From IMG/VR virus record IMGVR_UViG_3300049733_000392, positions 1 through 29,588 of that record: 29,588 nt of DNA; one strand, 5' to 3'. The position numbers were made by a program, and so were the translations under genes. The stretch comes from a virus. This document shows positions 198 through 23,902 of the stretch, piece by piece. Every line of letters starts with the position of its first letter. The first letter of the stretch is position 1. The notes under the pieces were generated by a model. It saw nothing but the letters and a program-made list of their open reading frames with translations, ran no database searches and was not told where the DNA came from.

Positions 198-2972
198 TTA
201 CTCTCCTTCTCCTTCTCTGTTGTGCAATCCTCTATCAAGCGTAGATGTTGAAACACCAAGAGCTTCTGCAATCTCAGCCTGGGTGTACCCCAAACTGATC
301 ATGTCCTGGGCTCTACTCAACTTGGCGGGGGTCATAGCTACAGCTTCACGGGGGATGGCGTGTTGTTTGATGATGTCCATGTCTGCACTATCCAAGATGT
401 CACGGAGCTTTGTATCACTAATGGCGCCCGCTTGAATAGCATCCCACTCCTCTGAGGTGACCTCAATCTTGTCCCTGGCAGCGCCTGTTCTACGACGGGC
501 TTCCTCAAGTGCCTGGAACTTCACCTTCTTCTCTTCCTCTTTCGTCATTGCAGGATTCGCATTCTTCTTCTGCTTGAAGATTGCATTAGCCTGCGCTTGA
601 GCCCGTCTTTCACGGGGCTTGTTCTCTACGACGAGGGTGAGTTTTGCATTGAGGGAGGCTACTTCTTTTGCATAGGTCTCGGCAGCAGAGGCACTCTTTT
701 TGGTAGGGGGGAGCAAAAGAGATTGACGCCTAGCCTCATTAGCCATGCCCTTCAACGCATTGGAGTGAGTAGCATACACACCCTCAATTACAGAACCGGA
801 TGATAGGGTGAATGCATCCTCCGTCTCTGCCAACTTGTTGACCTTGGTGGTTCTAGGTACAACCTCTCCGGTCTTCTTATCGACTATGGTCCTTCCCGTT
901 TCTTGGTACATCTTCTTTCCGGTACGGGGGTCAATTGGACCACCCTGGGAGGAGAGTCTATCTTTCCTCTCCGGTACCATCTCCGTTGACTTCTTCCTTG
1001 AAATCAACGTTGCTGCACCAGCATCAGGCCTACCTTGGTACTTCTCCTTCAAAGCCCGGATACCATTGTCGGTTGCCGACTGCTTGATGTTCAAGCTATG
1101 CTTCTCAGAGTCGATGACCACCATTGAATGACGAACAGCCCTAGCTATCTCAGAAGTACTAGCACCTTTGATCGTCATGTCAGTAATCAGGTTTGAAATG
1201 TCGCCCATCTCTCGCTGCATTTGCCCTGGGTTTGGGCCCTTAGGTCCATACTCAACAGTTCTTTTTGCAGCGTTCCAATGTCCACCATCGACAGTCTTCA
1301 TTCCGTCATATGGGGGATAGGCATTCTTCGTATCGAAGTTCTTCAGCTCATGCAGAGGTGTGCCTGATCTGATTCTTCCCTGATTGTTGGGAATCACCAA
1401 TACTGTGTCGCCGTCAAAGTCGGCACCAGAAAGGTGTTGGGCTACTCGAGAGTTGATACCAATCGCATCACGAGGTTGGAGACCAACAGTGCGCCGTGAT
1501 TCAGCATGCTTGTTGTTGACAGTCAGCTCTGGGATCTCGAATGTTCCACCATGGGGGTATCTAATTAAAGCTACCGTCTCCCCATTGTTGAAGTGCGGAG
1601 CATACACTTCATGATCACCAAGAGATTCGATCGGCAAGATAACTTGCCAACGTTGACGAGGCAGCTGTGCAGCTTTGAGGTGTACTGCAGCAGCATCTGT
1701 CTCATCAGCAAACTGCAAAAGCAGCTTCTGCTTGACTGTTGGGTTTGTTGACGCCATGATCTTGTCATACTCAGCTTGCCGAGATTCATGGGTCATGTTG
1801 AGCTGTGTGCGAGCAATTTCTGGATCTTGCTTTGACAGCATCTGAGCCGAGATGGTCTTTGACCACTTGGTCCAGTCACCTTCTTCACGAAGGATGTTCA
1901 TCACAGATGAGACATTGCCGTCATCATCCAGAATTTGACGCTTGAGAACGGCTCCGAACGGGTTGTCCGGATCGATCTTGCCGTGTTCGTCCCGCATGTC
2001 CTTGAAGGCGTCATGCTTATTGCCAGTATCACTCTTGTTCGTGTTGAACATGAGATCAACACCATCAGGAAGATCGTCTTTGTAGACAGCCATTCCCTTG
2101 AGGTAGTGATGATCATCAACTTGAATACGAACTTGAGCGTATCTCGAGTTACCAAGAGATACATCGGTGACATCTGGACGAACATAGATAACGCCATCTG
2201 CCTCTGATCCACCTTGCTCGGCATAACGAACAGCAACACGCTTCGAAGAAATCGGGAGGGGGGTTTTAATCCCAAGAGCGGTCCGCCCACCATCATCCGA
2301 GAACTCTTGCATGGAACCGAATGTACCAGAGTCAACGTAAGGTTTGACATCGTGCCAACTCATACCAGGGGCAGCAAGAACTTGAAAGGTTGTCATCTTG
2401 CCAGTCCCAAGCTGCATGACCTTATACTCGTACTTGGTGTACCCATCTTCAGCTAGAGCAGAAATGGCGATGTCTTTCTTTTCTTTGCTGACGCCCATGT
2501 AGTTTTCCGTGCCAAACCCAACATCGACAACCTTGTCTTTGTCGACTTGAGCCTTCAACATTGCTGTTGTACCACGAATGGCGTTTTGTTTGTCAGCTTG
2601 AGATGCGGCAAGCAACGTGCGATATGTTGATTCTGGAATGCCCATCTCTTTGGCAGCAGCTACATTCGAAACACCTGCCTCACTGAGCCTGACAGCTTGA
2701 GCGACTTCAGCTTCCTTCTTCTCACTTTTGGCGATAGCCTTCGCCTCACGAAGCTTTTTGACAGACCCTTCGCCTGTGTAGTCGTCAATAAGCCCCATCT
2801 CTTTAGCTGCTTGCTTTTCGCTGAGCCCCCATTCTTTCATGTACTTTTCGCACATTTCAAGAAATGACATGCTTCGCTGGTACGAGTCGTCGCCAGACCC
2901 CCAAGGGTACCGCCCAGACCGCCGGAGGATTCCATAGTGCTCGAGATACACAGATTCGTCTAGGATCACCAT
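198..2972 (-). CDS. Two-barrel (DFDGD) RNA-polymerase-like protein, YonO-like
   Basis: This is a 924-aa protein. Residues 517-522 read ADFDGD (Asp518, Asp520, Asp522), the metal-binding signature of the beta-prime barrel in multisubunit RNA polymerases and of single-chain relatives such as SPbeta YonO. Upstream, YPHGGTFEIPEL (about 472-483) resembles the Arg/Pro-rich strand before that barrel. NTNKS (Lys313) and LKGMAVY (Lys292) lie where the first barrel, with its catalytic lysines, would be expected. Short HTH-like segments occur near 48-60, 95-121 and 890-915. The N-terminus holds YLEHYGILRRSGRYPWG, similar to the HYGIxGMKWG motif of phage head-associated proteins. The ATG overlaps the end of the nuclease gene and follows AAGGGGGG. 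The barrel signature is clear. RNA polymerase activity is inferred, and a virion location is speculative. Confidence 0.72.
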   Translation of the reverse strand: MVILDESVYLEHYGILRRSGRYPWGSGDDSYQRSMSFLEMCEKYMKEWGLSEKQAAKEMGLIDDYTGEGSVKKLREAKAIAKSEKKEAEVAQAVRLSEAGVSNVAAAKEMGIPESTYRTLLAASQADKQNAIRGTTAMLKAQVDKDKVVDVGFGTENYMGVSKEKKDIAISALAEDGYTKYEYKVMQLGTGKMTTFQVLAAPGMSWHDVKPYVDSGTFGSMQEFSDDGGRTALGIKTPLPISSKRVAVRYAEQGGSEADGVIYVRPDVTDVSLGNSRYAQVRIQVDDHHYLKGMAVYKDDLPDGVDLMFNTNKSDTGNKHDAFKDMRDEHGKIDPDNPFGAVLKRQILDDDGNVSSVMNILREEGDWTKWSKTISAQMLSKQDPEIARTQLNMTHESRQAEYDKIMASTNPTVKQKLLLQFADETDAAAVHLKAAQLPRQRWQVILPIESLGDHEVYAPHFNNGETVALIRYPHGGTFEIPELTVNNKHAESRRTVGLQPRDAIGINSRVAQHLSGADFDGDTVLVIPNNQGRIRSGTPLHELKNFDTKNAYPPYDGMKTVDGGHWNAAKRTVEYGPKGPNPGQMQREMGDISNLITDMTIKGASTSEIARAVRHSMVVIDSEKHSLNIKQSATDNGIRALKEKYQGRPDAGAATLISRKKSTEMVPERKDRLSSQGGPIDPRTGKKMYQETGRTIVDKKTGEVVPRTTKVNKLAETEDAFTLSSGSVIEGVYATHSNALKGMANEARRQSLLLPPTKKSASAAETYAKEVASLNAKLTLVVENKPRERRAQAQANAIFKQKKNANPAMTKEEEKKVKFQALEEARRRTGAARDKIEVTSEEWDAIQAGAISDTKLRDILDSADMDIIKQHAIPREAVAMTPAKLSRAQDMISLGYTQAEIAEALGVSTSTLDRGLHNREGEGE

Positions 2973-3526
2973 TCCCCCCTTACCTTGAAGTCTTCGATTG
3001 CTTGGTCAAACGCCACGATCTTCTCCATGATGCGAGCAATCACTTCAGGATATGGCTCAAACACCTTGATGCTGTCGTTTTGGTAGATGCGCAACTCAAC
3101 CCCGATATCATGTGGCGATATGATGTATTCGAGGCAGAATAATGCAGCATAGACCTCCAGTTGATGTTGGGATCCGTCTAACACACCGGTTTTCAGGTCG
3201 TGGACTCTCAGAAGATCACTACGGAAGCAGATGGTGTCTGCATGGCCATAACAATTCGGAGAGTAGTACAGCGGCTGCTCCACAGACATGTGATAGCCAA
3301 TAGCATCATTGACATACATGCTGAGAGTCTTCTGCTCGTCTGGTAGTCGAATTCCCAAACGAATAGCCTCATGAGCGAAGGCGTGGAGTTCGGTACCTCG
3401 TACAGAAGCACGATGCGCAACATATCGTGCCTCCAGCTTCTGTTCGTTGTAGTTGATCCAGTGGTAGTTGCTCGGACTTAGGAAGGCGTGCTTACCGTCC
3501 AAATCGGAATGTGTGTTGAAGTTCAT
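2966..3526 (-). CDS. PD-(D/E)XK nuclease (Cas4/RecB-like)
   Basis: A 186-aa protein with the ordered motifs of a PD-(D/E)XK exonuclease: GHAD at 94-97, HDLKTG with Asp110 and Lys112, and QLEVYA with Gln122, the usual GxxD / DxK / QxxxY series of the RecB/Cas4 group. An upstream ELHAFAHEA segment (47-55) supplies a candidate N-terminal helix with histidines. No cysteine cluster for an Fe-S centre is evident, so it is closer to plain phage exonucleases than to full Cas4. The start overlaps the end of the VRR-NUC gene, and its stop overlaps the start of the polymerase-like gene, implying one transcript. A likely role is DNA end processing in recombination or replication. Confidence 0.8.
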   Translation of the reverse strand: MNFNTHSDLDGKHAFLSPSNYHWINYNEQKLEARYVAHRASVRGTELHAFAHEAIRLGIRLPDEQKTLSMYVNDAIGYHMSVEQPLYYSPNCYGHADTICFRSDLLRVHDLKTGVLDGSQHQLEVYAALFCLEYIISPHDIGVELRIYQNDSIKVFEPYPEVIARIMEKIVAFDQAIEDFKVRGEW

Positions 3527-3788
3527 TTAGCACATCCTCTTCGATCTCTGGCCAGATGTATGATGCGAATGACATCTTGTCAAAGAGCTCGATGTAGTAG
3601 TCCTGATTCGGTCTTGTCGGTGCATTGGCACTGAGTTTGACTTCTAGCATTGCCCAGAATTCTCCACAGAGAACTATCAGGTCTGGCACCCCTTGAAGGT
3701 AAGCGGTGTCATTCTTGAGAACTATGCAACCAGGAAAACGGCGTTCAATCCTCTGGATCAGTTGGGCTTGGTAATCCCTCTCCCGCAT
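3492..3788 (-). CDS. VRR-NUC domain nuclease
   Basis: Called from ATG 3788 because GGAGG lies six bases upstream; the frame is open further (to 3878), but those residues overlap the preceding membrane-protein gene and look unrelated. The 98-aa product matches a minimal VRR-NUC domain: an N-terminal helix with Glu residues, KNDTAYLQGVPDLIVL with Pro35-Asp36, then LEVK (Glu49, Lys51) and NQ (Gln62). These are the catalytic residues of the PD-(D/E)XK superfamily in its VRR-NUC form, which in phages often acts as a Holliday-junction or structure-specific nuclease. It overlaps the upstream membrane gene by 44 bases and the downstream nuclease by 35 bases, so all three should be co-expressed. Confidence 0.82.
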   Translation of the reverse strand: MRERDYQAQLIQRIERRFPGCIVLKNDTAYLQGVPDLIVLCGEFWAMLEVKLSANAPTRPNQDYYIELFDKMSFASYIWPEIEEDVLNELQHTFRFGR

Positions 3789-4173
3789 GCTCAACCTCCA
3801 ATTCTCGGATCTCTCTCCGTTCTCGTCTCTCGGCATCCTGGGCATAGCGCAGTGCTTGGTACGTGGCAGACACAGCACCAGCTAGAGCGCCTATTCCAGT
3901 CGCTGCGAGAGTGATGAACTCCGAATCTCTGATGGCAACAGCGGCCAAGATTGACACGAGGCTGAGGACGGAGAGGGATAGTACGAGGCCTACTGGAGGT
4001 ACAAATTGGGCTGCCTTGAGTAATGCCCAGACAAAGACAAAAGTGATACCAACTGTCGCTCCAAGAAACAGCAGTAGCTGTGAATTCGTGAAGTCAAACC
4101 TGAACGTTGGCTGCAAATCGTCTTCGTTGGGAGGCACTGTCGTTGCCAGAATCACCCCCAGTTGTGAATACAT
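3745..4173 (-). CDS. Multi-span membrane protein of unknown function
   Basis: Called from ATG 4173, which is preceded by GGGAGGT with a four-base gap. A longer in-frame start exists at ATG 4212, but it lies about where transcription from the promoter at 4221-4245 should begin and has no ribosome-binding site. The 142-aa product has three hydrophobic segments, at roughly residues 32-53, 58-79 and 83-103, then a charged tail rich in Arg and Glu (ERRERREIRELE). A short N-terminal region precedes the first span. The topology would allow a holin-like role, but nothing specific supports that. It is the first gene after a shared-type promoter, like the small membrane-protein units at 17-22 kb. Confidence 0.75.
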   Translation of the reverse strand: MYSQLGVILATTVPPNEDDLQPTFRFDFTNSQLLLFLGATVGITFVFVWALLKAAQFVPPVGLVLSLSVLSLVSILAAVAIRDSEFITLAATGIGALAGAVSATYQALRYAQDAERRERREIRELEVEHAGEGLPSPTDPED

Positions 4174-4220
4174 CAGACCTCCCAAAAAATCAAAGGGATT
4201 GTCAAATGACATTCCCTATC

Positions 4221-4245
4221 ATTATAGGAGTTGTAGATCGTGCGA
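4221..4245 (-). promoter_or_regulatory. Shared promoter, copy 1
   Basis: Minus-strand TCGCA (4241-4245), 14 nt, TATAAT (4221-4226). It belongs to the 11-copy family with invariant spacing. It begins inside the gap just after the HNH gene stop and drives the 142-aa membrane protein and the nuclease/RNA-polymerase-like genes beyond. The next bases (GATAGGG) differ from most other copies. Confidence 0.75.
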
Positions 4246-6682: not shown

Positions 6683-6961
6683 CTACACTCCCGTGTAGTC
6701 GTCCGGACCAGTCTCGTCATTCCGCCCGATGACGACCGACTTCCCGAATGTGACGAGCTCTTTCGCCTCGTCCCCCTCAAAGGAGCCTCCGCCGTGCTCC
6801 TCATGGATCCAAACGGATTTGGACCCGCCGCCGAAGTAGCCTCCGGCGACTTCTTCCTCGTCCTCATCCACCCAGACGATCTCACGATCGCCGAAGTAAT
6901 GATCACGAGACTCGTACCGCTTGTGGCGGCCGAGGAATTGCTTTGCTTCTTCGAGTGTCAT
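6683..6961 (-). CDS. Small acidic phage protein (92 aa)
   Basis: Its ATG overlaps the stop of the preceding membrane-protein gene (TAATG), so the two are coupled. The product starts MTLEEAKQFLGRHKRYESRD and contains an acidic stretch WVDEDEEEVAGGYF (about 30-43) followed by a GGG turn and a second beta-like stretch KSVWIHEE. A further Glu/Asp-rich segment and a short DDYTGV tail close it. It looks like a small globular beta-rich protein. I recall similar actinophage proteins, all without assigned function. No membrane segment, signal or metal motif is visible. Confidence 0.72.
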   Translation of the reverse strand: MTLEEAKQFLGRHKRYESRDHYFGDREIVWVDEDEEEVAGGYFGGGSKSVWIHEEHGGGSFEGDEAKELVTFGKSVVIGRNDETGPDDYTGV

Positions 6962-7251
6962 TACATCTCACCTTGAATTTTGAAGCGCTCTGGGTTGTTT
7001 CTGATTGCTGTTGGGCTGCAACCAGCAACTTCTGCCATACGGCGAATACTTGCTGTTTCTTCGCCTGTTTGCGTATCCAGGACCCTGAAACCTGGATGCC
7101 CTCGCCGAACAAGTGTCTGCACGCCGCCAGGGGACTTGTACATGATTTGCACATTCTGTCCATACGACATGACGCCAACGACCACCCCACCAATGGCTAA
7201 TCCAAGGTAGAATTTCTTGTTCCGTTTGAAGTGATCCCTTACTTTCTCCAT
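6961..7251 (-). CDS. Membrane-anchored protein with C-terminal HTH-like segment
   Basis: A 96-aa protein with ribosome-binding site AAAGGGATGAC. The basic N-terminus KVRDHFKRNKKFY (3-15) leads into one transmembrane span (about 14-30). The C-terminal half (48-92) has a beta stretch FRVLDTQTGEE then IRRMAEVAGCSPTAIRNN, a NUMOD1- or HTH-like pattern (x-Ia-x-Aa-x3-Gcsp-x-tI). The N-terminal anchor motif K-[VI]-x2-H-x2-RN-x3-Y recurs in two other proteins of the window (154 aa and 124 aa). The gene is driven by shared promoter copy 2 through a leader of about 110 bases with two similar hairpins. A membrane-tethered DNA- or RNA-binding role is possible but unproven. Confidence 0.75.
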   Translation of the reverse strand: MEKVRDHFKRNKKFYLGLAIGGVVVGVMSYGQNVQIMYKSPGGVQTLVRRGHPGFRVLDTQTGEETASIRRMAEVAGCSPTAIRNNPERFKIQGEM

Positions 7252-7300
7252 GTCATCCCTTTCTATTAGTTTGTGGAGAAGAAAAGAAGAATAGCATTTT

Positions 7301-7352
7301 CGTGTGGTATCTAGTACCTTTTACACGGATAGTGCTGTATCTAGTACCGCAC
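7301..7352 (-). promoter_or_regulatory. Twin leader hairpins with identical CTAGA loops
   Basis: In the transcript from promoter copy 2, two successive hairpins (7352-7332, then 7327-7301) each present GGTACTAGATAC: stem GTA/TAC around a CTAGA loop, closed by GTGC/GCAC in the first and CGTGT/ACACG in the second. The 12-mer copies are 30 bases apart. They could be RNA regulatory elements or paired DNA operator sites. Confidence 0.5.
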
Positions 7353-7369
7353 TAACTGCTATCCTTCTC

Positions 7370-7394
7370 ACTATAGGGCGTGTAGATCTTGCGA
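7370..7394 (-). promoter_or_regulatory. Shared promoter, copy 2
   Basis: Minus-strand TCGCA (7390-7394), 14 nt, TATAGT (7370-7375). It is the only copy whose -10 departs from TATAAT. It lies directly after the stop of the 27-aa gene and transcribes the 96-aa and 92-aa genes. Confidence 0.75.
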
Positions 7395-8072: not shown

Positions 8073-8193
8073 GTCTCTCCTCGGTCGAACATGGGTGGCC
8101 TGACAGGGGGGCGGCGCCCTCGCAGACTGTAAGCGCACGCAACCTATCCCGGCGGAATGGGATACGGTCCACGGTACTTAGCACCCACGATTG

Positions 8194-9108: not shown

Positions 9109-9129
9109 GTGCTTCCTTTCGTTTTGGGG

Positions 9130-9158
9130 GCTGGGTTCCAGTGACGTAGTCACCCAGC
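9130..9158 (-). other. Stem-loop before the mucin-like gene
   Basis: Minus-strand GCTGGG and CCCAGC flank an inner GTGAC-TAC-GTCAC pair. No T-tract follows, so it is not a clear terminator. It lies between the 52-aa gene stop and the mucin-like gene start. Confidence 0.35.
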
Positions 9159-9174
9159 GAACCAACGTTGGAGA

Positions 9175-17948: not shown

Positions 17949-17965
17949 GAGCGCTTGTGGCGCTC
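17949..17965 (-). terminator. Terminator after the 58-aa gene
   Basis: Minus-strand GAGCGC / CACAA loop / GCGCTC, followed by TCTTCTTTTCTCTTT. The loop matches those of several other cassette terminators. Confidence 0.75.
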
Positions 17966-17985
17966 CCCTCTTGTTGGATCACTGA

Positions 17986-18162
17986 TCACTCAGTAATGCC
18001 CTTGTTCCGGTAGTTCCTGATCGCCGACAGTCCTCTCAGGTAGCCCTGCTCAGCACCCTTGCTTGCCACCATGCCTGCTAGTGCGCAGACGACGGTGATC
18101 GCAACGGTGTGAGCGATGACGCCCTTCGTTGAATTGCTGTCGAACAGTTCGTTCCGATCCAT
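17986..18162 (-). CDS. Small single-span membrane protein (58 aa)
   Basis: Starts at ATG 18162 after AAGGAGAATGTA. One hydrophobic segment (about 15-33, VIAHTVAITVVCALAGMVA) separates a short polar N-terminus from a basic C-terminus (LRGLSAIRNYRNKG). It is the only gene between shared promoter copy 3 and the terminator at 17949-17965, thus a complete one-gene cassette. The family is unknown to me. Small size, one span and a basic tail are shared with the other cassette proteins. Confidence 0.7.
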   Translation of the reverse strand: MDRNELFDSNSTKGVIAHTVAITVVCALAGMVASKGAEQGYLRGLSAIRNYRNKGITE

Positions 18163-18187
18163 TACATTCTCCTTGTTTGGTTCTCCT

Positions 18188-18212
18188 ATTATAGGGTGTG
18201 TAAATCTTGCGA
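18188..18212 (-). promoter_or_regulatory. Shared promoter, copy 3
   Basis: Minus-strand TCGCA (18208-18212), 14 nt, TATAAT (18188-18193). It begins right after the stop of the 251-aa gene at 18214 and drives the 58-aa gene. Confidence 0.78.
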
Positions 18213-18213
18213 C

Positions 18214-18969
18214 TTACTTCAGGAGACCCTCATAGAGAGGTCTGTAATAGTTGTACTCGAATGCAAGACACGGTCTTCCGTCCTCTGTCAGGACCGTTGA
18301 GAAGTGCAATTCGAGCAGTTTGTCGGACACCCACCCAACGTCCGCAGAGAACTGAGTGGGTTGCAGTCCGAGAAGGTAGTACAACTCGTCCATCGAGCAA
18401 GTATCCTGTTGGAGAAGCTGCTCATTGAGTTTGTTCACCGCCTTCCGCAAGCTCTCCATATCGCTGGTGAAGTATCGCCCTGTGTAGAGCTCGCAGCAGA
18501 GCACGTTCCCTGGCCCTGAAATCAGCATCGGAGGATTTGCGTGGACTTTGTCTTCGGCCAACTTGGCCCGGATAGCGGCTTCCTTCTTCTCCCCGATCTC
18601 CTCGATGACCTTCTCCTTGTACTCGGAATAAGCACGCTCGGTTAGCGCAAACGCAGCCTGTGCGGCGATTGCACGGTTGTGTCCGATACGTGTCGTCCCG
18701 ATAACGCAAGTAGAGGTCAAGACTACGGCAACAGCCGGCGGAATATAGCACTTCCATACCAACTTTGCGTGACGCTTGCGCCTGTCCTTCGGAAACTCCG
18801 CCGGTCCTCCTGGATGCCGGTTGTAGTCCGCCATGCGGATGATCTTGTCCGCCTTGAGTGCTGCTTTTCCCGACAAATATGCCGTTGCCAGGACTCCAAT
18901 CACAGATGCGCCTGTGAGCAGCGTTGGAGAGTTGTGACGTACGCTCCTGATGATCGGGTCGAGCTTCAA
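18214..18969 (-). CDS. Two-span phage membrane protein, DUF6353-like (251 aa, TTG start)
   Basis: The best start is TTG 18969, whose first three bases overlap the stop of the 42-aa gene (TTGA), with GAGGT just upstream. The earlier in-frame ATG at 19086 would read across the 42-aa gene and is unlikely. Features: NSP (13-15), spans at about 16-34 and 75-92, a helix ERAYSEYKEKVIEEIG (111-126) and a C-terminal domain with YFTSDMESLRKAVNKLNEQ, DELYYLLGLQP and VGWV. It is a paralogue of the 286-aa protein. It is cotranscribed with the 42-aa gene from promoter copy 4, and promoter copy 3 begins one base past its stop. Confidence 0.75.
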   Translation of the reverse strand: MKLDPIIRSVRHNSPTLLTGASVIGVLATAYLSGKAALKADKIIRMADYNRHPGGPAEFPKDRRKRHAKLVWKCYIPPAVAVVLTSTCVIGTTRIGHNRAIAAQAAFALTERAYSEYKEKVIEEIGEKKEAAIRAKLAEDKVHANPPMLISGPGNVLCCELYTGRYFTSDMESLRKAVNKLNEQLLQQDTCSMDELYYLLGLQPTQFSADVGWVSDKLLELHFSTVLTEDGRPCLAFEYNYYRPLYEGLLK

Positions 18970-19094
18970 CGGTACCTCATTTCCCGAACGAAGACCCAGA
19001 TGAGCCAGAGGCCGCAGGTGAACAGCGTCATGAAGCAGTCTCCCATGAAGTGGAAAAAGCCATAGCGACGCCGATATGGGTAACAATCTCTCAT
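18966..19094 (-). CDS. Small membrane protein (42 aa)
   Basis: MRDCYPYRRRYGFFHFMGDC is followed by a hydrophobic segment (about 20-36, FMTLFTCGLWLIWVFV) and a short basic end. GGAG lies eight bases before the ATG. Similar short RRRYG... membrane proteins occur in actinophages, as far as I recall. The stop overlaps the TTG start of the two-span protein, so it is translated together with it. It comes after a leader with terminator-like hairpin and two 17-bp repeats. Confidence 0.7.
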   Translation of the reverse strand: MRDCYPYRRRYGFFHFMGDCFMTLFTCGLWLIWVFVREMRYR

Positions 19095-19174
19095 GTCATT
19101 ACTCCTTTGCTTTCGACAGAGAAATAAAGAGAGCACTTGTGGTACTCTCTTTTGCCTTCCTGAGAAGTAGCCAT
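19091..19174 (-). CDS. Possible 27-aa leader peptide
   Basis: Open frame from ATG 19174 with GGGGGTG six bases upstream, ending in TGA that overlaps the start of the 42-aa gene (ATGA). Its middle crosses the hairpin at 19126-19153. The overlap and hairpin suggest a leader-peptide arrangement, but an open frame of this length is easily chance. Confidence 0.35.
   Translation of the reverse strand: MATSQEGKREYHKCSLYFSVESKGVMT
19126..19153 (-). terminator. Terminator-like hairpin in the 42-aa gene leader
   Basis: Minus-strand stem of 11 pairs (AAAGAGAGTAC / GTGCTCTCTTT with one G-T), CACAA loop, then ATTTCTCTG. It lies between promoter copy 4 and the 42-aa gene, so it would act as an attenuator rather than an end of gene. 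Confidence 0.6.
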
Positions 19175-19182
19175 TTGTTGCA

Positions 19183-19226
19183 CCCCCGTTTCCGTAAGAT
19201 GCAACTAAGCCCCCGTTTCCGTAAGA
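19183..19226. repeat. Two 17-bp direct repeats in the leader
   Basis: Identical CCCCCGTTTCCGTAAGA copies at 19183-19199 and 19210-19226, 27 bases apart, in the leader downstream of promoter copy 4. On the minus strand they end in GGGGG; the one nearer the start may serve as ribosome-binding site of the 27-aa frame. Confidence 0.8.
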
Positions 19227-19244
19227 CCGTTATGGCTTCCTCTC

Positions 19245-19269
19245 ATTATAGGCGTTGTAAATCTTGCGA
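19245..19269 (-). promoter_or_regulatory. Shared promoter, copy 4
   Basis: Minus-strand TCGCA (19265-19269), 14 nt, TATAAT (19245-19250), immediately beyond the stop of the 154-aa gene. It drives the leader, the 42-aa gene and the 251-aa gene. Confidence 0.78.
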
Positions 19270-19270
19270 C

Positions 19271-19735
19271 CTAGGAATGAATCCCGATTCGCTCGAAGAC
19301 CCGGTCTCCAGGAAGAGACCGTCCATGATTGATGTGCTTCGAGAAAGTCGAAGGATCTACGCCTGCATCTCGAGCCGCGGCTGCTTGGCTCAACCAGTAG
19401 TTGTCGGTTCCGACTTCACGGGTGATGTAGCTGAGCGCATCGTTGCCGATGTTGTTCGTGGTGATGTTGTTCGTCGTGTTGTTGATCGTCGGGTTGATGA
19501 TGTCCCGCCCAGCGTTCAACGCTGCGTTCTGCGTTCCGCCCTCGACCAAAGCCGTATTCACAGCTGACACGTGTCCGAAATGACGACCCACCTCGAAAAT
19601 CGCAATGGCAAGTGCTGTGCCACCGCCGACGGCGTACGCCCGCTTGTTCCGTGAAACGTGGCCTGACACCTTCTTCACGGCTTGGTTCTCCTCAACATTC
19701 TTCTTGAGGCGCTCCCATCTGTCTCTCATGGTCAT
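19271..19735 (-). CDS. Membrane-anchored protein with HTH-like C-terminus (154 aa)
   Basis: Starts at ATG 19735 with AAAGGAGAAATC upstream. KVSGHVSRNKRAY (22-34) leads into a span (about 33-49), matching the anchor motif of the 96-aa and 124-aa proteins. An Asn/Thr-rich low-complexity stretch lies at 79-98 (INNTTNNITTNNIG). The C-terminal part (about 100-154) contains WLSQAAAARDAGVDPSTFSKHI, an HTH-like helix-turn-helix pattern. It is driven by promoter copy 5 through a leader with two hairpins. Membrane-tethered nucleic-acid binding is plausible but unproven. Confidence 0.75.
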   Translation of the reverse strand: MTMRDRWERLKKNVEENQAVKKVSGHVSRNKRAYAVGGGTALAIAIFEVGRHFGHVSAVNTALVEGGTQNAALNAGRDIINPTINNTTNNITTNNIGNDALSYITREVGTDNYWLSQAAAARDAGVDPSTFSKHINHGRSLPGDRVFERIGIHS

Positions 19736-19768
19736 GATTTCTCCTTTGTAGTTAGTTGACCTGGGTGA

Positions 19769-19814
19769 GAAAAAAAAGAGGCTAGGAAACTCGGCCCATC
19801 GAAAACCGAGTTCC
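19769..19814 (-). terminator. Terminator-like hairpin ahead of the 154-aa gene
   Basis: Minus-strand stem AACTCGG / CCGAGTT with a 12-base loop, then TTTTTTTT after a short spacer. It lies between promoter copy 5 and the 154-aa gene start, so it should act as an attenuator. Confidence 0.55.
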
Positions 19815-19820
19815 AGGTGG

Positions 19821-19839
19821 GTAGGGATCTTCTCCCTAC
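19821..19839 (-). other. Leader stem-loop, seven-pair perfect stem
   Basis: GTAGGGA / TCCCTAC around GAAGA on the minus strand, seven bases before the terminator-like hairpin. It could compete with or assist that hairpin. Confidence 0.55.
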
Positions 19840-19863
19840 ACTTTCGTGTCTCACCTTCCTCTC

Positions 19864-19888
19864 ATTATAGGACGTGTAAATCTTGCGA
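19864..19888 (-). promoter_or_regulatory. Shared promoter, copy 5
   Basis: Minus-strand TCGCA (19884-19888), 14 nt, TATAAT (19864-19869), adjacent to the stop of the 77-aa gene. It drives the 154-aa gene. Confidence 0.78.
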
Positions 19889-19891
19889 CCC

Positions 19892-20125
19892 CTAGGAAAC
19901 GATCTGGATGAACTGCATTTCCTCCTTGACCATCGCCTTGATTTGTTCCGCCGTTAGATGCTCCTGTGACGCCCGCACAAGAATATCGCCCATCGCATTA
20001 GCCATCAGAGGCTGCGTTGCGATGATCTTCCGCCTTACCGACCTGTGGTACCACTTCGCCCCAATGACGAATCCAGTGGCAAATATGAGAATGCCACCGC
20101 CAACTATCAACGCTTCTTCTCCCAC
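19892..20125 (-). CDS. Small single-span membrane protein (77 aa, GTG start)
   Basis: The start codon is GTG at 20125, preceded by AAAGGATCAGGAACG, and it overlaps the end of the 45-aa gene by 19 bases. A hydrophobic N-terminal segment (about 6-23, LIVGGGILIFATGFVIGA) is followed by a basic turn (KWYHRSVRRK) and a helical tail with SQEHLTAEQIKAMVKEE. It has no obvious relative that I recall. It is the last gene of the unit begun by the 56-aa gene and precedes promoter copy 5. Confidence 0.7.
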   Translation of the reverse strand: MGEEALIVGGGILIFATGFVIGAKWYHRSVRRKIIATQPLMANAMGDILVRASQEHLTAEQIKAMVKEEMQFIQIVS

Positions 20126-20244
20126 CGTTCCTGATCCTTTCTTCTCTTGTTTTCTGTTTGGATCTTGAAGACTTCCCAGGCGACGTCGATGATCAACAGC
20201 CCGGCTAGGACGACAACAAGAAATTCCATTGCATCAGCACTCAT
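20107..20244 (-). CDS. Small single-span membrane protein (45 aa)
   Basis: Starts at ATG 20244 after GGAGGAACA. It has a hydrophobic segment (about 6-24, MEFLVVVLAGLLIIDVAWEV) and a strongly basic, charged tail (KRRKDQERWEKKR). It overlaps the 77-aa gene. No shared promoter lies directly before it; a terminator at 20264-20287 separates it from the 56-aa gene, so it probably depends on readthrough or a weaker promoter. Confidence 0.68.
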   Translation of the reverse strand: MSADAMEFLVVVLAGLLIIDVAWEVFKIQTENKRRKDQERWEKKR

Positions 20245-20263
20245 TGTTCCTCCAGGGAAAAGA

Positions 20264-20287
20264 TCAAAGCACTTGTGTGTGCTTTGA
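20264..20287 (-). terminator. Terminator after the 56-aa gene
   Basis: Minus-strand TCAAAGCAC / ACACAA loop / GTGCTTTGA, nine perfect pairs, then TCTTTTCCC. No promoter copy follows it, unlike the other terminators of this family. Confidence 0.78.
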
Positions 20288-20295
20288 CCGTAGAG

Positions 20296-20466
20296 TCATT
20301 TGTTGACTCGGTAATTGACCTGCTTGGCGTAAGCCCGACGGCCCTGCGCTGCGCTCAATGCATCGATCAGCTTCGCTGCGGCAACAACCGCAACGGAGCA
20401 GACTGCAATGACCTCAACGGGGTGCTCCTCGAACTTCTTCTTCAAGTTGGCCCATCCCTTTTTCAT
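20296..20466 (-). CDS. Small single-span membrane protein (56 aa)
   Basis: Called from ATG 20466, which is preceded by AGGAGGTATTGAA; the open frame extends upstream through the promoter but not in a way that makes sense. MKKGWANLKKKFEEHP is followed by a span (about 17-35, VEVIAVCSVAVVAAAKLID) and an Ala/Arg-rich tail. It is a one-gene cassette: promoter copy 6 before it and the terminator at 20264-20287 after it. The ribosome-binding site lies within the bases just after the -10 of the promoter, so the mRNA may start at or after it. Confidence 0.7.
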   Translation of the reverse strand: MKKGWANLKKKFEEHPVEVIAVCSVAVVAAAKLIDALSAAQGRRAYAKQVNYRVNK

Positions 20467-20479
20467 TTCAATACCTCCT

Positions 20480-20504
20480 ATTATAGGGGTTGTAGATCTT
20501 GCGA
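20480..20504 (-). promoter_or_regulatory. Shared promoter, copy 6
   Basis: Minus-strand TCGCA (20500-20504), 14 nt, TATAAT (20480-20485), preceded directly by the TTTTTT of the terminator at 20510-20531. It drives the 56-aa gene. Confidence 0.8.
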
Positions 20505-20509
20505 AAAAA

Positions 20510-20531
20510 CCAAAGCACTTGTGTGCCTTGG
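20510..20531 (-). terminator. Terminator after the 72-aa gene
   Basis: Minus-strand CCAAGGCAC / ACAA loop / GTGCTTTGG (one G-T pair), then TTTTTT, which merges with promoter copy 6. Confidence 0.8.
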
Positions 20532-20539
20532 CTTTGAGT

Positions 20540-20758
20540 TCAGCTTTCAAATGCCGCCGAATTGGCGACCATGAAACGTCCGTCTTCAGATGCCCAACCT
20601 CCGGTTGGTTCGTCCATCAACCGCTGGAGCTGGTCGTTGGTCATCGTGAAGATGTGCTGCCGCTTGTTTACGACAATCATCGTCCCAATGATTCCAACGC
20701 CAACGCCGACGGCCACTGGGGCCCAACGCTTGGCGATTCTCTGAATCTTGTCTTTCAT
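20540..20758 (-). CDS. Small single-span membrane protein (72 aa)
   Basis: Starts at ATG 20758 after AAGGAGAAGTC. A short basic N-terminus (MKDKIQRIAKRWAP) precedes the span (about 15-30, VAVGVGVGIIGTMIVV). The C-terminal part (IFTMTNDQLQRLMDEP ... SEDGRFMVANS) is soluble and polar. It is a one-gene cassette between promoter copy 7 and the terminator at 20510-20531. No known family comes to mind. Confidence 0.72.
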   Translation of the reverse strand: MKDKIQRIAKRWAPVAVGVGVGIIGTMIVVNKRQHIFTMTNDQLQRLMDEPTGGWASEDGRFMVANSAAFES

Positions 20759-20792
20759 GACTTCTCCTTCTTATGGTTTGAGTTCTTTCCTC

Positions 20793-20817
20793 ATTATAGG
20801 AGGTGTGAAAGTTGCGA
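20793..20817 (-). promoter_or_regulatory. Shared promoter, copy 7
   Basis: Minus-strand TCGCA (20813-20817), 14 nt, TATAAT (20793-20798). It drives the 72-aa gene and follows the terminator of the 54-aa gene. Confidence 0.78.
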
Positions 20818-20824
20818 GAAAAAA

Positions 20825-20846
20825 CCAAAGCACTTGCGTACTTTGG
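20825..20846 (-). terminator. Terminator after the 54-aa gene
   Basis: Minus-strand CCAAAGTAC / GCAA loop / GTGCTTTGG with one G-T pair, then TTTTTTC; the run leads into promoter copy 7. Confidence 0.78.
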
Positions 20847-20853
20847 CTTTGGT

Positions 20854-21018
20854 TCACTTTTCGTTCTTGTTCTTCCGAAAACCGACCTTGACCGTCACCA
20901 TGCGACGCACCGCAATGACCCCAAGTGTGATGGCAGCTCCGGCAATGACGCCTCGATGCCATCCATCCTTGTAGCCCAGCGTGTACGACGCAAGCAACTG
21001 TGTATGGTTGGATTCCAT
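20854..21018 (-). CDS. Small single-span membrane protein (54 aa)
   Basis: Starts at ATG 21018 after AAGGAGAACGAA. The polar N-terminus (MESNHTQLLASYTLGYKDGW) is followed by a span (about 23-37, GVIAGAAITLGVIAV) and a basic tail (RRMVTVKVGFRKNKN). It is a one-gene cassette between promoter copy 8 and the terminator at 20825-20846. Its family is unknown. Confidence 0.72.
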   Translation of the reverse strand: MESNHTQLLASYTLGYKDGWHRGVIAGAAITLGVIAVRRMVTVKVGFRKNKNEK

Positions 21019-21044
21019 TTCGTTCTCCTTTTTGTAGTTCTCCT

Positions 21045-21069
21045 ATTATAGGACGTGTGAATCTTGCGA
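21045..21069 (-). promoter_or_regulatory. Shared promoter, copy 8
   Basis: Minus-strand TCGCA (21065-21069), 14 nt, TATAAT (21045-21050). It drives the 54-aa gene. A TTTCTTTTT tract of the preceding terminator abuts TCGCA. Confidence 0.8.
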
Positions 21070-21077
21070 AAAAGAAA

Positions 21078-21095
21078 GAGCCCCCACAGGGGCTC
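21078..21095 (-). terminator. Terminator after the 124-aa gene
   Basis: Minus-strand GAGCCCC / loop / GGGGCTC, seven perfect pairs, then TTTCTTTTTC running into promoter copy 8. Confidence 0.82.
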
Positions 21096-21099
21096 AATC

Positions 21100-21474
21100 T
21101 CAATCATCATCATCCGTACGCCAATCTATATCTGGATGTGGTCCATGCCAGTCTTCTAGCCATTCATCAAAGTCTAGCGGTTCGGAGTTTTCATCAACCA
21201 ACGCATTTGTGCCATCGCCAACGTAAAACTCTTGTTCATAATCGCGATAGTACTCCATCGCCCATTCTCTTTCGGCTCTGTCTTCTTCAGCACAAAAGCG
21301 ATCAAACTCTAGTTTTTTGACGAAAGCTCTATACTTTGGGTATGCAATTCCGATCACGATAACCTTTGTTATGACCAGTCCTGTTACGACCGCATACCTT
21401 CTAGCATTACGCCTGAAGTGGTTCTTGATCTTGCTTACTCTTGTTTCAGCTCTTTCTTCTTCATTCTCGCTCAT
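21100..21474 (-). CDS. Single-span membrane protein (124 aa) with shared anchor motif
   Basis: Starts at ATG 21474 after AAGGAGAACGAA or similar. The acidic N-terminus leads into KIKNHFRRNARRY (15-27) and a span (about 28-45, AVVTGLVITKVIVIGIAY), the anchor motif also found in the 96-aa and 154-aa proteins. The C-terminal two thirds are acidic and aromatic with FCAEEDRAEREWAMEYY and an end of TDDDD. There is no HTH-like segment, unlike the other two. It is a one-gene cassette between promoter copy 9 and the terminator at 21078-21095. Confidence 0.75.
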   Translation of the reverse strand: MSENEEERAETRVSKIKNHFRRNARRYAVVTGLVITKVIVIGIAYPKYRAFVKKLEFDRFCAEEDRAEREWAMEYYRDYEQEFYVGDGTNALVDENSEPLDFDEWLEDWHGPHPDIDWRTDDDD

Positions 21475-21501
21475 TTCGTTCTCCTTTCTGAGCGTTCTCT
21501 C

Positions 21502-21526
21502 ATTATAGGAGGTGTGGAATTTGCGA
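21502..21526 (-). promoter_or_regulatory. Shared promoter, copy 9
   Basis: Minus-strand TCGCA (21522-21526), 14 nt, TATAAT (21502-21507). It drives the 124-aa gene. Confidence 0.78.
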
Positions 21527-21531
21527 AAAAA

Positions 21532-21553
21532 CCATAGCCCTTGTGGACTATGG
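21532..21553 (-). terminator. Terminator after the 64-aa gene
   Basis: Minus-strand CCATAGTCC / ACAA loop / GGGCTATGG with one G-T pair, then TTTTTT running into promoter copy 9. Confidence 0.8.
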
Positions 21554-21561
21554 CTTTTCTT

Positions 21562-21756
21562 TCAGTTCTCGATCAACTTCTGCAACCGCAGATACTCCAG
21601 AAACGCATCTGTGTCCTCGATTGTCCTCTTGATGCTGGCGATCCTGTTCTTGCGCGCCTTCCGAATCCGGTAGCGACGCATGCTTTCACGTCCAGCAATG
21701 AGCACTGCGAGTCCACCGACCGTTCCGATCAGTATCTTCTTGTCTTGATTGTTCAT
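21562..21756 (-). CDS. Small single-span membrane protein (64 aa)
   Basis: ATG 21756 follows AGGAGGTAATGAG, which is the stretch just after the -10 of promoter copy 10. A short N-terminus (MNNQDKK) precedes the span (about 8-21, ILIGTVGGLAVLIA), then a strongly basic segment (RESMRRYRIRKARKNR) and an acidic helix (TIEDTDAFLEYLR). It is a one-gene cassette. The basic tail suggests it faces the cytoplasm; the role is unknown. Confidence 0.72.
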   Translation of the reverse strand: MNNQDKKILIGTVGGLAVLIAGRESMRRYRIRKARKNRIASIKRTIEDTDAFLEYLRLQKLIEN

Positions 21757-21769
21757 CTCATTACCTCCT

Positions 21770-21794
21770 ATTATAGGAGGTGTAGATTATGCGA
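21770..21794 (-). promoter_or_regulatory. Shared promoter, copy 10
   Basis: Minus-strand TCGCA (21790-21794), 14 nt, TATAAT (21770-21775). The ATG of the 64-aa gene lies only 13 bases after the -10, so the mRNA would have a very short or no leader. Confidence 0.78.
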
Positions 21795-22006
21795 ATTGTT
21801 CTCTAGAAATCTCCCCCCGGGGATTTTTTGGCCTTGAAAACGGGAATTCCTTCGGAAAGGCCTCTGTAAGCCTCTAGGAGACGAGAAGCGAATTTTCCGC
21901 ACCCAACATACCCCCCAACCCTGTTTCGTCGCTTAGAACGCATTCTAGAGGGGTGTTTCTAACGAAAAGGGCAAAAAATATAAGAATTGACCGACAAAAA
22001 CAGAAA
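21795..22006. other. About 210-bp spacer without a recognisable gene
   Basis: It lies between the terminator at 22007-22035 and promoter copy 10. I see several short inverted stretches, such as TAGAA / TTCTA near 21930-21955 and a GC-rich hairpin near 21810-21830 whose T-run is on the plus strand, but no convincing gene, tRNA or known element. Confidence 0.6.
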
Positions 22007-22035
22007 GGCCATGCTGAATTCTCTTCAACATGACC
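22007..22035 (-). terminator. Terminator after the 95-aa gene
   Basis: Minus-strand GGTCATGTTGAA / GAGAA loop / TTCAGCATGGCC, 12 pairs with two G-T, then TTTCTGTTTTTG. Confidence 0.8.
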
Positions 22036-22076
22036 TCTCCGTCTTTGTTCAACCCTTTCGGTTGATCGTCCTCTTG

Positions 22077-22364
22077 TTACCTCGTTCTGAGGAACATCTG
22101 TTTTGCGTTGGACGTCACGACATGCTTCTGTTCGTAGGCGACCATGATGAGGATTCCCGCCAAGTTTCCCGCAACGATGGCCATTGTGTCGCTTGTTACC
22201 GGCTTCCGAGCATTCTCGCTCTTCATCCGGCTCAATCGTTCCAATTGATCCATCAGTTTCAGGAACTCTGGGTCTTCCACACCATAGGTGCGCATTCCTT
22301 CCAGAACCTTCTCGATCGGTTCATCGTAAATCGATGTCCGCTCCTTCTTCAGTAGCTTGAACAC
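22077..22364 (-). CDS. Conserved phage protein with one membrane span (95 aa, GTG start)
   Basis: The start is GTG 22364, with AAGGAG six bases upstream. The N-terminal two thirds are helical and charged: YDEPIEKVLEGMRTYG and PEFLKLMDQLERLSRMK. A hydrophobic segment follows (about 60-78, TMAIVAGNLAGILIMVAYE) and a short basic end. The pattern DEPIExVLExMxTYG ... MAxVAGNLxGILxxVAYEQKH is one I recall from many Gram-positive phage proteins of unknown function. It is driven by promoter copy 11 and ends at a strong terminator. Confidence 0.78.
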   Translation of the reverse strand: MFKLLKKERTSIYDEPIEKVLEGMRTYGVEDPEFLKLMDQLERLSRMKSENARKPVTSDTMAIVAGNLAGILIMVAYEQKHVVTSNAKQMFLRTR

Positions 22365-22387
22365 GACTCTCCTTTCTAGTTTCTCCT

Positions 22388-22412
22388 ATTATAGGAGTGG
22401 TGAAATATGCGA
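22388..22412 (-). promoter_or_regulatory. Shared promoter, copy 11
   Basis: Minus-strand TCGCA (22408-22412), 14 nt, TATAAT (22388-22393). It lies nine bases beyond the stop of the 119-aa gene and drives the 95-aa gene. It is the most upstream copy in the window. Confidence 0.78.
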
Positions 22413-22420
22413 AAGGCGAA

Positions 22421-22780
22421 TCAAACTTGCTGCTGAAGTACCTTGAACGAGATGCGCTCTTCGTCCGCCAACTCTTCCGGATCTGCGTGCAGCACGAGAA
22501 TATACCCGGCTGCACCACCACCATCCTGCTTCACGACGAATTCACCGTGCAGATCTCTGTCTGACGCCAAATATCGCTTCCTGCTCTCATGAACGAGCCA
22601 ACCATAGAGCAATGACAGGAGCGCAATGCCCCCGAGCACATACTTAACCGCTGGCAAGTCCACAAAGAGCGAAGTAGTGAAATATAGCGCTGAACAGACC
22701 GGAAGAATGAGCATGACGAACGTCTTGGTGAATTCGTACGCCTCGTTGGTGAGAATCGGCCTTTTTCCATCTGGACGCAT
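22421..22780 (-). CDS. r1t-holin-like membrane protein (119 aa)
   Basis: Starts at ATG 22780 after AAGGAGACATA. Two hydrophobic segments lie at about 19-37 (FVMLILPVCSALYFTTSLF) and 45-63 (KYVLGGIALLSLLYGWLVH), with ILP, LYF and LP patterns of r1t-type holins. The C-terminal soluble part (about 77-119) has DLHGEFVVKQDGG, YILVLHADPEEL and ISFKVLQ, a beta-like tail I recall from actinophage membrane proteins. Its position directly after the tail genes fits a lysis or virion role. Holin function is inferred from topology and the motif only. Confidence 0.6.
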   Translation of the reverse strand: MRPDGKRPILTNEAYEFTKTFVMLILPVCSALYFTTSLFVDLPAVKYVLGGIALLSLLYGWLVHESRKRYLASDRDLHGEFVVKQDGGGAAGYILVLHADPEELADEERISFKVLQQQV

Positions 22781-22789
22781 TATGTCTCC

Positions 22790-23902
22790 TTACGTTCCCA
22801 GAATTTCCAACGTCGGATGTGAGCTTTCTCCCGTTTCGTCCTCAATCTCCACATACTCCACAACCCGCATCGTCGCAATGGGGCCGTAACTGCTGTCAAC
22901 CGACACAATGTCGCCCATGTTGTAATCACGGCGATATGCATAAGTTGGCGTACGTGAAATATCGGTACGAGAGAGCTGGAGGCGCTTTTGGGCCTGTAGG
23001 GCCTGATTGCCTCGAGTGGTCATGGCTGTGCGTACTGACGTAAGGGTCGCTCCTGTCGGAATAACGTCGTACACGCCATCGATGTCTGATCCGTCAACGA
23101 GAAGGACTCGTCGATCGAGGCCGGTCTCCGGTCCATGCACCATTTGCTCGACATAGCGCCCTGAGACGAGAGCCGAGGTCTTGAGTTTCTTGATGGACCA
23201 GAGGTAATCGGCCGAATCGATGTCTCCGTTTTTGGTGGAGAAGACCACTTGACTACGACGGTCGTCACCGTCATGGATGAGAAGCGTCGCATTGGCTCCT
23301 GGCTGTGGCAGGCCGGCAACATTGTGAGGACGAATTCCCCGTAATCCAAGGTCGTTGACCTCGAGAATATCGAGAAGCTCTTTCATCACATTGTTGCGCT
23401 TGACAGTTCTCGCCTCACTGACACCTGTGCCGCTCACATCGTTCGCACCGACCAGAGACGGAATTCCATCACCAGCATTGATGACGGTGCCTACCCGAAT
23501 ATGATCATTGATGAGCGTTGTGCCCTGAATCCACGTGTAGTTGGCTGGCAGAGTGTAGAGCGAAACGCTGATGCTTGCAGGAGGAGCGGCCCAGTTGTTG
23601 TTCTGACCGACGATACGCCCCTCAAGAAGTGTCTGCAGGCTTCGACCAGTTACGGTCAGCAGTGGATCTTTGTCCTCCTCCTCGGCAATCTGGTGATTCT
23701 CCACCACCATGACCTCGAGAGTCTTGTGATGGGAAATAAGAGTACCGAGGGGGAGGAACTCACGCAGACCTGAGCTCAGTTTGGCCTTGATCTCGAATTC
23801 GCCAGGATCTCTGTACCTCTCCGTCCAAGAGGCACTGTCCCATTCGTCGATCGTTTGTCCACTCGTGAACGTGTTGGGGTCGTTGAATCGGAATAGATCC
23901 AT
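22790..23902 (-). CDS. Gp37-like tail protein (ReqiPepy6 type)
   Basis: A 370-aa protein. The opening MDLFRFNDPNTF, the pattern WTERYRDPGEFEIKAKL, VVENHQIAEEEDKDPLLTVTGRSLQ and the later RRDYNMGDIVSVDSSYG match the Siphovirus ReqiPepy6 Gp37-like family as I remember it. Members act in the tail tip or baseplate of Gram-positive siphoviruses. The start is coupled to the Dit-like gene (TAATG overlap, GGGGGGTGTA upstream). The order tape measure - Dit - Gp37-like is standard for a siphovirus tail module. No signal peptide or membrane segment is present. Confidence 0.82.
   Translation of the reverse strand: MDLFRFNDPNTFTSGQTIDEWDSASWTERYRDPGEFEIKAKLSSGLREFLPLGTLISHHKTLEVMVVENHQIAEEEDKDPLLTVTGRSLQTLLEGRIVGQNNNWAAPPASISVSLYTLPANYTWIQGTTLINDHIRVGTVINAGDGIPSLVGANDVSGTGVSEARTVKRNNVMKELLDILEVNDLGLRGIRPHNVAGLPQPGANATLLIHDGDDRRSQVVFSTKNGDIDSADYLWSIKKLKTSALVSGRYVEQMVHGPETGLDRRVLLVDGSDIDGVYDVIPTGATLTSVRTAMTTRGNQALQAQKRLQLSRTDISRTPTYAYRRDYNMGDIVSVDSSYGPIATMRVVEYVEIEDETGESSHPTLEILGT

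Follow-up and report, generated by a model that had tools for sequence, protein, structure and literature searches.

A virus record in IMG/VR (IMGVR_UViG_3300049733_000392; 29,588 bases, hereafter the window), which is a partial genome of a tailed phage, carries an array of short genes that are preceded by one repeated element, TCGCA-N14-TATAAT. Judged from its sequence, this element is almost certainly a promoter, and very probably the promoter of a single-chain two-barrel RNA polymerase encoded by the phage itself. The element recurs in a fixed form and on a single strand, directly before short genes and covarying structured RNAs, and it accompanies the polymerase in phages whose hosts span two phyla, Actinobacteria and Firmicutes.

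A repeated element with fixed spacing

The window holds ten exact copies of TCGCA-N14-TATAAT and an eleventh with TATAGT, all of them on the minus strand, with nine lying within 18188-22412 and the remaining two starting at 4221 and 7370 (Table 1). When up to two mismatches were allowed there were 15 matches, compared with 3.8 +/- 1.9 in shuffled sequences (maximum 9), and a matrix built without the window recovered the same 11 minus-strand sites and no others, whether on the plus strand or in shuffles. The number of copies, their strand and the exact 14-nucleotide (nt) spacing described in an earlier note on this DNA are confirmed by these scans, and the spacer positions it had listed as constant, namely T at 4, AC at 7-8 and CC at 13-14, are so in 11/11 copies.

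In the phages Psst4, RosaAsantewaa and AddiRose, the same element is present in arrays of small genes that follow the holin gene, and a relaxed pattern detected it in 24/32 records tested, with no match on the opposite strand and none to a reversed control pattern. A scan matrix was constructed from 82 sites and used at a 17-bit threshold, always excluding the genome under test; every one of 18 polymerase-bearing phage records had between 4 and 34 sites, on the coding strand only and with approximately none in shuffles, and CaiB, which has no polymerase, had none. The first pattern scan of phage records was too strict, as it missed Mudcat, Argan, JoyLin, OhMyWard and Count, in each of which the matrix found 4-11 sites. 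Two further records contain diverged forms with the spacing of the boxes unchanged: Lactococcus phage P078 has seven sites of the form TTTTA..TTTTACATACCC-TATAAT-GAAAG, and Faecalibacterium phage FP_oengus has 12 of the form ACGCG-AAAAATACAGCCTC-CTTTAT-GGAAAG, all on one strand, against an expectation of 1.65 under that search pattern. The latter form was uncovered by model-free counting of gapped words, after an apparent negative. With diverged forms counted, the element occurs in 20/20 polymerase-bearing phage records tested (the 18 with matrix sites, P078 and FP_oengus). In the search of related phages, which had been proposed as a check on the element, no relative was found that retains the region having lost the element, since the one apparent exception, FP_oengus, carries a diverged form.

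A logo of 251 sites from 25 genomes reads TCGCA, then A/T-rich sequence up to TTACA, then ssCC-TATAAT-GAGA-cCCC, with the boxes about 10 base pairs (bp) apart. These sites contain no information at the -35 position beyond the TC of TCGCA, and the hexamer is preceded by C-rich sequence, not by TGn. The sigma-70 -10 form TANNNT fits the hexamer in the window and in most relatives, whereas, with the other boxes kept, FP_oengus has CTTTAT, and RosaAsantewaa has mostly TTAAAT or TTATAT, and also TAAGAT. In wider searches a strict pattern had at least 119 matches in viral contigs, and a near-identical pattern had four in 257 gigabases of bacterial and archaeal genomes. Single strong copies in bacterial assemblies, on two contigs of Clostridiales metagenome-assembled genomes (L221 and L223) and two Streptomyces contigs (L222 and L224), are possible phage or prophage fragments.

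Short genes behind the element

Each of the 11 window elements is followed by a short open reading frame (ORF), and in 10/11 cases its product has a hydrophobic stretch with KD19 >= 1.3, the 154-residue product of 19271-19735 being borderline at 1.17. The earlier note's description of a small membrane protein leading each unit largely stands as far as the ORFs are concerned, but not for the three units that begin with structured RNA. Its statement that most units end in a hairpin and T tract abutting the next promoter was too strong, as only four window promoters (21526, 21069, 20817 and 20504) directly adjoin such a structure. Over all genomes, first ORFs have a median length of 76 residues, and their starts lie at a median distance of 29 nt 3' of the hexamer; a clear hydrophobic segment (KD19 >= 1.6) is encoded by 55% of first ORFs in the relatives, compared with 10% of shuffled sequences. 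A terminator-like hairpin lies no more than 70 nt upstream at 98/251 sites, compared with 52/1040 random places. The proposal of repeated promoter-gene-terminator units under common control is supported, and a small hydrophobic product is usual in the relatives.

In three annotated genomes 30/30 sites are intergenic, in the case of Psst4 within a genome of which only about 7% is intergenic, and nearly all of the 30 have an annotated start codon 22-57 nt downstream. Element sites are concentrated between the holin and replication genes and before the polymerase operon, and there are none in the structural genes of annotated relatives. The array, and the polymerase itself, are probably under the control of the element promoter, while the late genes would be read by other means. 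A role of the small membrane proteins at the host membrane can be offered as a guess.

Structured RNAs and the position of the RNA start

Three of the 11 window units (those of elements 19864-19888, 19245-19269 and 7370-7394) open with a structured RNA of approximately 85-90 nt before any ORF. In these units, and between closely-spaced elements in the relatives, the GAGA.. sequence that follows the hexamer pairs with the 3' end of the RNA, just before a U tract. When stems of at least 8 bp ending at a U tract were counted at 703 distinct sites, 46 had an outermost pair lying between -3 and +2, counted from the base that follows the hexamer, against about four in shuffled controls. These predicted closing stems suggest that RNA synthesis starts at that base, give or take about 3 nt, and not 6-8 nt downstream of it, as would be the case for sigma-70; the earlier note had expected a start 6-8 bases past TATAAT, and on this point the stems argue against it. 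Two window mRNAs (elements 21770-21794 and 20480-20504) have a Shine-Dalgarno sequence immediately behind the hexamer, which fits a start at the hexamer end.

One of the window RNAs belongs to a family resembling transfer RNA (tRNA). A covariance model of five copies, restricted to the core and including no promoter sequence, identified 18 copies at E < 1e-5 among the selected loci. Changes on both sides are seen for 8/11 pairs of the core, a covariation score that no shuffle reached, and every copy begins 5-26 nt behind an element hexamer. Rfam contained no family matching this RNA at its thresholds, and returned otherwise only sub-threshold matches at chance level. Copies outside the window include L077:10563, L080:9837, L087:1347, L143:5119, L147:2995-3037 and L220:5666, among others, and some carry a true T-loop sequence (UUCGAAU in L220); lone tRNA-like genes stand behind an element in ReqiPepy6 (NC_023735, near 41173) and P078 (NC_024215, near 23987). 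A different design, in which two identical apical hairpin or loop sequences are held in one closing stem, is predicted in Qui (NC_070877, 85729-85873) and Conley (OR159671, 38784-39029). The repeats in such paired-loop RNAs include CATTGCG loops and, in the window, TCTTACGGAAACGGGGG twice (19162-19244) and GGTACTAGATAC twice (7276-7369).

A single-chain polymerase that accompanies the element

The 924-residue product of the gene at 198-2972 matches phrog_4291 (RNA-dependent RNA polymerase) with E 0. It contains the catalytic DxDGD motif, as DFDGD at residues 518-522, within the sequence LSGADFDGD that is invariant among 22 diverse relatives and also among 42 aligned relatives, and has helix-turn-helix (HTH) domains near both ends, around residues 86-123 and 890-915. 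An AlphaFold2 model generated from 42 viral sequences had a predicted local distance difference test score (pLDDT) of 81.5 and a predicted template modelling score (pTM) of 0.62. The folds nearest to it by Foldseek were QDE-1 (E 2.7e-8), plant RDR2 and phage P74 gp62 (E 4.5e-6), with structural alignments to these folds giving Z of 13-17 over residues 238-757 or 238-865; when solved structures were searched with the polymerase profile by sequence alone, no polymerase was matched significantly. By its DFDGD motif and the QDE-1-like fold of its model, the protein is a single-chain two-barrel RNA polymerase with additional HTH-bearing ends, and is predicted to synthesise RNA. Its relationship to YonO by sequence is very distant at best, comprising an 81-residue match to the YonO family phrog_8308 (E 5.9e-4) and, with hhalign, a match of only 20 columns at a probability of 3.8%.

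The polymerase family was found in 250 isolated phage records of the collection searched, the hosts being mostly Arthrobacter, Gordonia and Streptomyces, and also Curtobacterium, Microbacterium, Rhodococcus, Lactococcus and Faecalibacterium. It is usually annotated in these records as a helix-turn-helix DNA-binding protein, a hypothetical protein or an RNA-dependent RNA polymerase, and some even label it a structural or tail fiber protein.

Among viral contigs selected through the element alone, 36/48 contained the polymerase, including 15/15 of those above 46 kilobases (kb), whereas it was present in 0/37 contigs selected through the sigma-70 consensus TTGACA-N17-TATAATGAGA, bar one 51-residue HTH match. 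The matrix itself gave two matches in 1.03 megabases of these control loci. An element stands immediately before the operon of VRR-Nuc, exonuclease and polymerase genes in AddiRose, Qui, Shiba, Argan, ReqiPepy6, FP_oengus and one viral contig, and in the window the copy at 4221-4245 lies upstream of the same operon. Together with its presence in every polymerase-bearing phage tested, the contrast between the two sets of contigs makes reading by a phage polymerase, which the earlier note had raised as one of several options, the best supported of them.

Weighing the alternatives

Several observations weigh against assigning the element to this enzyme. The polymerase is absent from 12/48 element-bearing viral contigs, although these are 23-46 kb in size and are probably fragments. 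The element-bearing phages form one broad lineage that has other core genes in common (exonuclease, VRR-Nuc, helicase, primase/polymerase, DUF6353 and tape measure), so co-occurrence alone does not single out the polymerase; instead, the link is made by elimination, as this is the only transcription enzyme in the common core set. In the window, as in most relatives, the hexamer matches the sigma-70 -10 perfectly. Lastly, the placement of the RNA start depends on predicted RNA folding and has a resolution of only about 3-4 nt, with some stems running into the AAT of the hexamer, such that an outermost pair at -3 may reflect pairing of the U tract with AAT.

The quality of the hexamer as a -10 sequence, in the window and at most sites, is what recommends a scheme similar to that of T4 MotA, in which host RNA polymerase would use TATAAT while a phage activator on TCGCA/TTACA replaced the -35, whose lack is itself expected of activator-dependent promoters. 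This is nevertheless unlikely, as the place of the hexamer is taken by other sequences in FP_oengus and RosaAsantewaa, the RNA would start at the hexamer end, the element is common to phages of two phyla whose host polymerases differ, and there is no activator-like protein among the other conserved core proteins. Any reading of the element by host sigma-70 is made unlikely by the drift of the hexamer to CTTTAT and TTAAAT or TTATAT, and by the lack of both a -35 and an extended -10. Ordinary sigma-70 promoters that are alike through cassette duplication, already a disfavoured explanation, are barely credible: they would account for the repeated cassettes and for TATAAT, but not for the fixed TCGCA and TTACA boxes, nor for an element conserved across phyla in front of genes that are unrelated in sequence. 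Also very improbable is a role like that of stoperators in cluster A phages, in which the element would not be a promoter but would mainly serve to bind a phage repressor or another DNA-binding protein. Repetition, asymmetry, a single orientation and intergenic positions would all suit such a site, but the short fixed distance to start codons, the frequent location behind terminators, and the position directly 5' of structured RNA genes lacking any other promoter would not, and neither repressor nor integrase was found in the window, partial genome as it is.

The reading that the phage polymerase serves its own promoter can be extended, and the balance tips slightly towards a fuller version of it, in which an HTH-bearing single-chain polymerase, independent of sigma factors, uses a three-box promoter with TATAAT at approximately -6 to -1 to run single-gene and single-RNA units, including those of the new tRNA-like family. 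TATAAT would then be a convergent look-alike of the bacterial -10, differently placed. On either version the polymerase, once made, would need no host sigma factor to recognise TCGCA, TTACA and CCTATAAT-GAGA, three boxes spaced by about 10 bp along one face of the DNA. Its fused terminal HTH domains would possibly make these contacts, and RNA would begin at about the first G, a purine, that follows the hexamer. The array of short units that follows the holin gene would thereby be transcribed, whether the units hold genes for small, mostly membrane, proteins or for small structured RNAs, and many would end at an intrinsic hairpin terminator. The element before the polymerase operon would provide positive feedback, yielding more enzyme, with the first copy coming from host transcription or from the virion.

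Features and neighbourhood of the array

Table 1. Coordinates of the features of the window; promoter and RNA assignments are predictions.
Feature	Coordinates	Strand	Remarks	Basis
Single-chain two-barrel RNA polymerase	198..2972	-	924 residues, phrog_4291; proposed reader of the element	
Exonuclease	2966..3526	-	In polymerase operon	
VRR-Nuc-like protein	3492..3878	-	In polymerase operon	Position and tblastn match to relatives' annotated VRR-Nuc proteins
Membrane ORF	3745..4212	-	First gene behind element 4221-4245; shorter start gives 142 residues	
Promoter element	4221..4245	-	5' of membrane ORF, then VRR-Nuc/exonuclease/polymerase genes	
96-residue membrane ORF	6961..7251	-	Behind element 7370-7394	
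Structured RNA	7276..7369	-	5'-3' pairing from first base, two GGTACTAGATAC repeats, then U tract	
Promoter element	7370..7394	-	TATAGT variant	Pattern and matrix scan
Terminator-like hairpin	~17949..17966	-	With T-rich tract, ends last array unit; no promoter behind	Read from sequence
58-residue small membrane ORF	17986..18162	-		
Promoter element	18188..18212	-		Pattern and matrix scan
DUF6353 protein	18214..19086	-	PF19880; annotated start is the longest possible	
42-residue membrane ORF	18966..19094	-	Followed by DUF6353 gene	
Structured RNA	19162..19244	-	Two TCTTACGGAAACGGGGG repeats, 5'-3' closing stem	
Promoter element	19245..19269	-		Pattern and matrix scan
154-residue ORF	19271..19735	-	Hydrophobic segment near N terminus, HTH-like C terminus (weak matches only)	
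Structured RNA	19770..19863	-	tRNA-like family (core 19813-19857); 5' GAGAGG pairs with CCUCUU, then U8 tract	
Promoter element	19864..19888	-		Pattern and matrix scan
56-residue small membrane ORF	20296..20466	-	ORFs 20107-20244 and 19892-20125 come next, no promoter between	
Promoter element	20480..20504	-	Shine-Dalgarno AGGAGG immediately 3' of hexamer	
Terminator-like hairpin	20510..20531	-	5' of element at 20504	
72-residue small membrane ORF	20540..20758	-		
Promoter element	20793..20817	-		Pattern and matrix scan
Terminator-like hairpin	20824..20847	-	5' of element at 20817	
54-residue small membrane ORF	20854..21018	-		
Promoter element	21045..21069	-		Pattern and matrix scan
Terminator-like hairpin	21078..21095	-	5' of element at 21069	
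124-residue small membrane ORF	21100..21474	-		
Promoter element	21502..21526	-		Pattern and matrix scan
Terminator-like hairpin	21532..21553	-	T tract extends into element at 21526	
64-residue small membrane ORF	21562..21756	-		
Promoter element	21770..21794	-	Shine-Dalgarno AGGAGG immediately 3' of hexamer, then start codon at 13 nt	
95-residue ORF	22077..22364	-	GTG start, phrog_5818, weakly hydrophobic segment	
Promoter element	22388..22412	-		Pattern and matrix scan

The genes of the window are ordered as the tape measure and minor tail proteins (22790-29489), the holin (22421-22780), the array, and then DUF6353 proteins, with further genes for a primase/polymerase (10894-14643), a single-strand annealing protein, a helicase, an HNH protein and an exonuclease. 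Within the array, the approximately 280 nt between the 95-residue ORF and the element at 21794 (21795-22076) have several hairpins and no convincing ORF. The array proteins encoded at 19271-19735 and 6961-7251 on the minus strand match phrog_27818 (with E 2.6e-6, and weakly with E 0.005, respectively), and appear to be membrane-anchored proteins with HTH-like C termini, on weak matches only. The DUF6353 (phrog_2152) paralogues at 15992-16852 and 18214-19086, also on the minus strand, have hydrophobic N-terminal regions, and the family is present in nearly all tested relatives.

Three other minus-strand genes lie between the array and the polymerase operon. The product of 9876-10433 has an Acb2/Tad1 hairpin domain (PF24729, E 1.7e-16) and is a possible cyclic-nucleotide sponge against host defence; AddiRose has a protein annotated as cyclic nucleotide sequestering. 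The 323-residue product of 8194-9165, which has a hydrophobic segment at its N terminus and a long linker rich in Thr and Ser, matched no PHROGs or Pfam family, and 7491-8138 encodes a 2OG-Fe(II) oxygenase (PF13640, E 9.3e-10).

Relation to known systems

That a phage polymerase can have promoters of its own is known, for instance from T7 and P23-45. In the middle, MotA-dependent promoters of T4, TATAAT is preceded by a phage box where the -35 would be, and in this respect they resemble the element described here; however, they are read by host polymerase with sigma-70 and start 7 nt past the hexamer, whereas here the hexamer varies across relatives. The nearest phage structure to the polymerase model is the non-virion RNA polymerase gp64 of the Thermus phage P23-45 (P74-26 gp62; 8f5m, 8f72), likewise a phage-encoded, single-chain, two-barrel enzyme. 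The phage promoters of P23-45 have been mapped genome-wide through transcription start site sequencing (PMC10770324), and are described as GC-rich and less conserved, unlike the long, three-boxed element in its repeated array; the P23-45 enzyme is also smaller, at about 590 residues, and has no long N- and C-terminal HTH regions.

YonO, from the Bacillus phage SPbeta, is a demonstrated DNA-dependent RNA polymerase that serves phage genes, and Forrest et al. stated that its promoter sequence was unknown (PMC5467207). It too is a single-chain two-barrel phage polymerase, with only very weak sequence similarity to that of the window, but it starts one late operon, whereas the element stands before many short units of the middle region and before no structural gene. 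In the part of SPbeta scanned, around yonO and yonK, there was no such element, the best score being 6 bits, and no array. Short motifs repeated in one direction before genes, with function unknown, have been described in actinobacteriophages (CaiB, PMC9302106; Microbacterium clusters EC and EI, PMC7302621); these differ in sequence from the element, and CaiB has neither the element nor the polymerase. A literature search of incomplete coverage, which extended to these phages and to promoters of the YonO type, revealed neither a description of this promoter nor a start signal for a polymerase of this kind.

If the proposed pairing is correct, it would offer an orthogonal promoter and polymerase for actinobacteria, and the question posed by the study of YonO, of which sequence such an enzyme recognises and whether helpers are needed, would become directly testable with a compact enzyme and a sequence of 25-35 bp. 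The pairing would also point to numerous phage RNA genes that lack annotation. These phages would then possess a transcription system of their own, with a promoter code that can be read.

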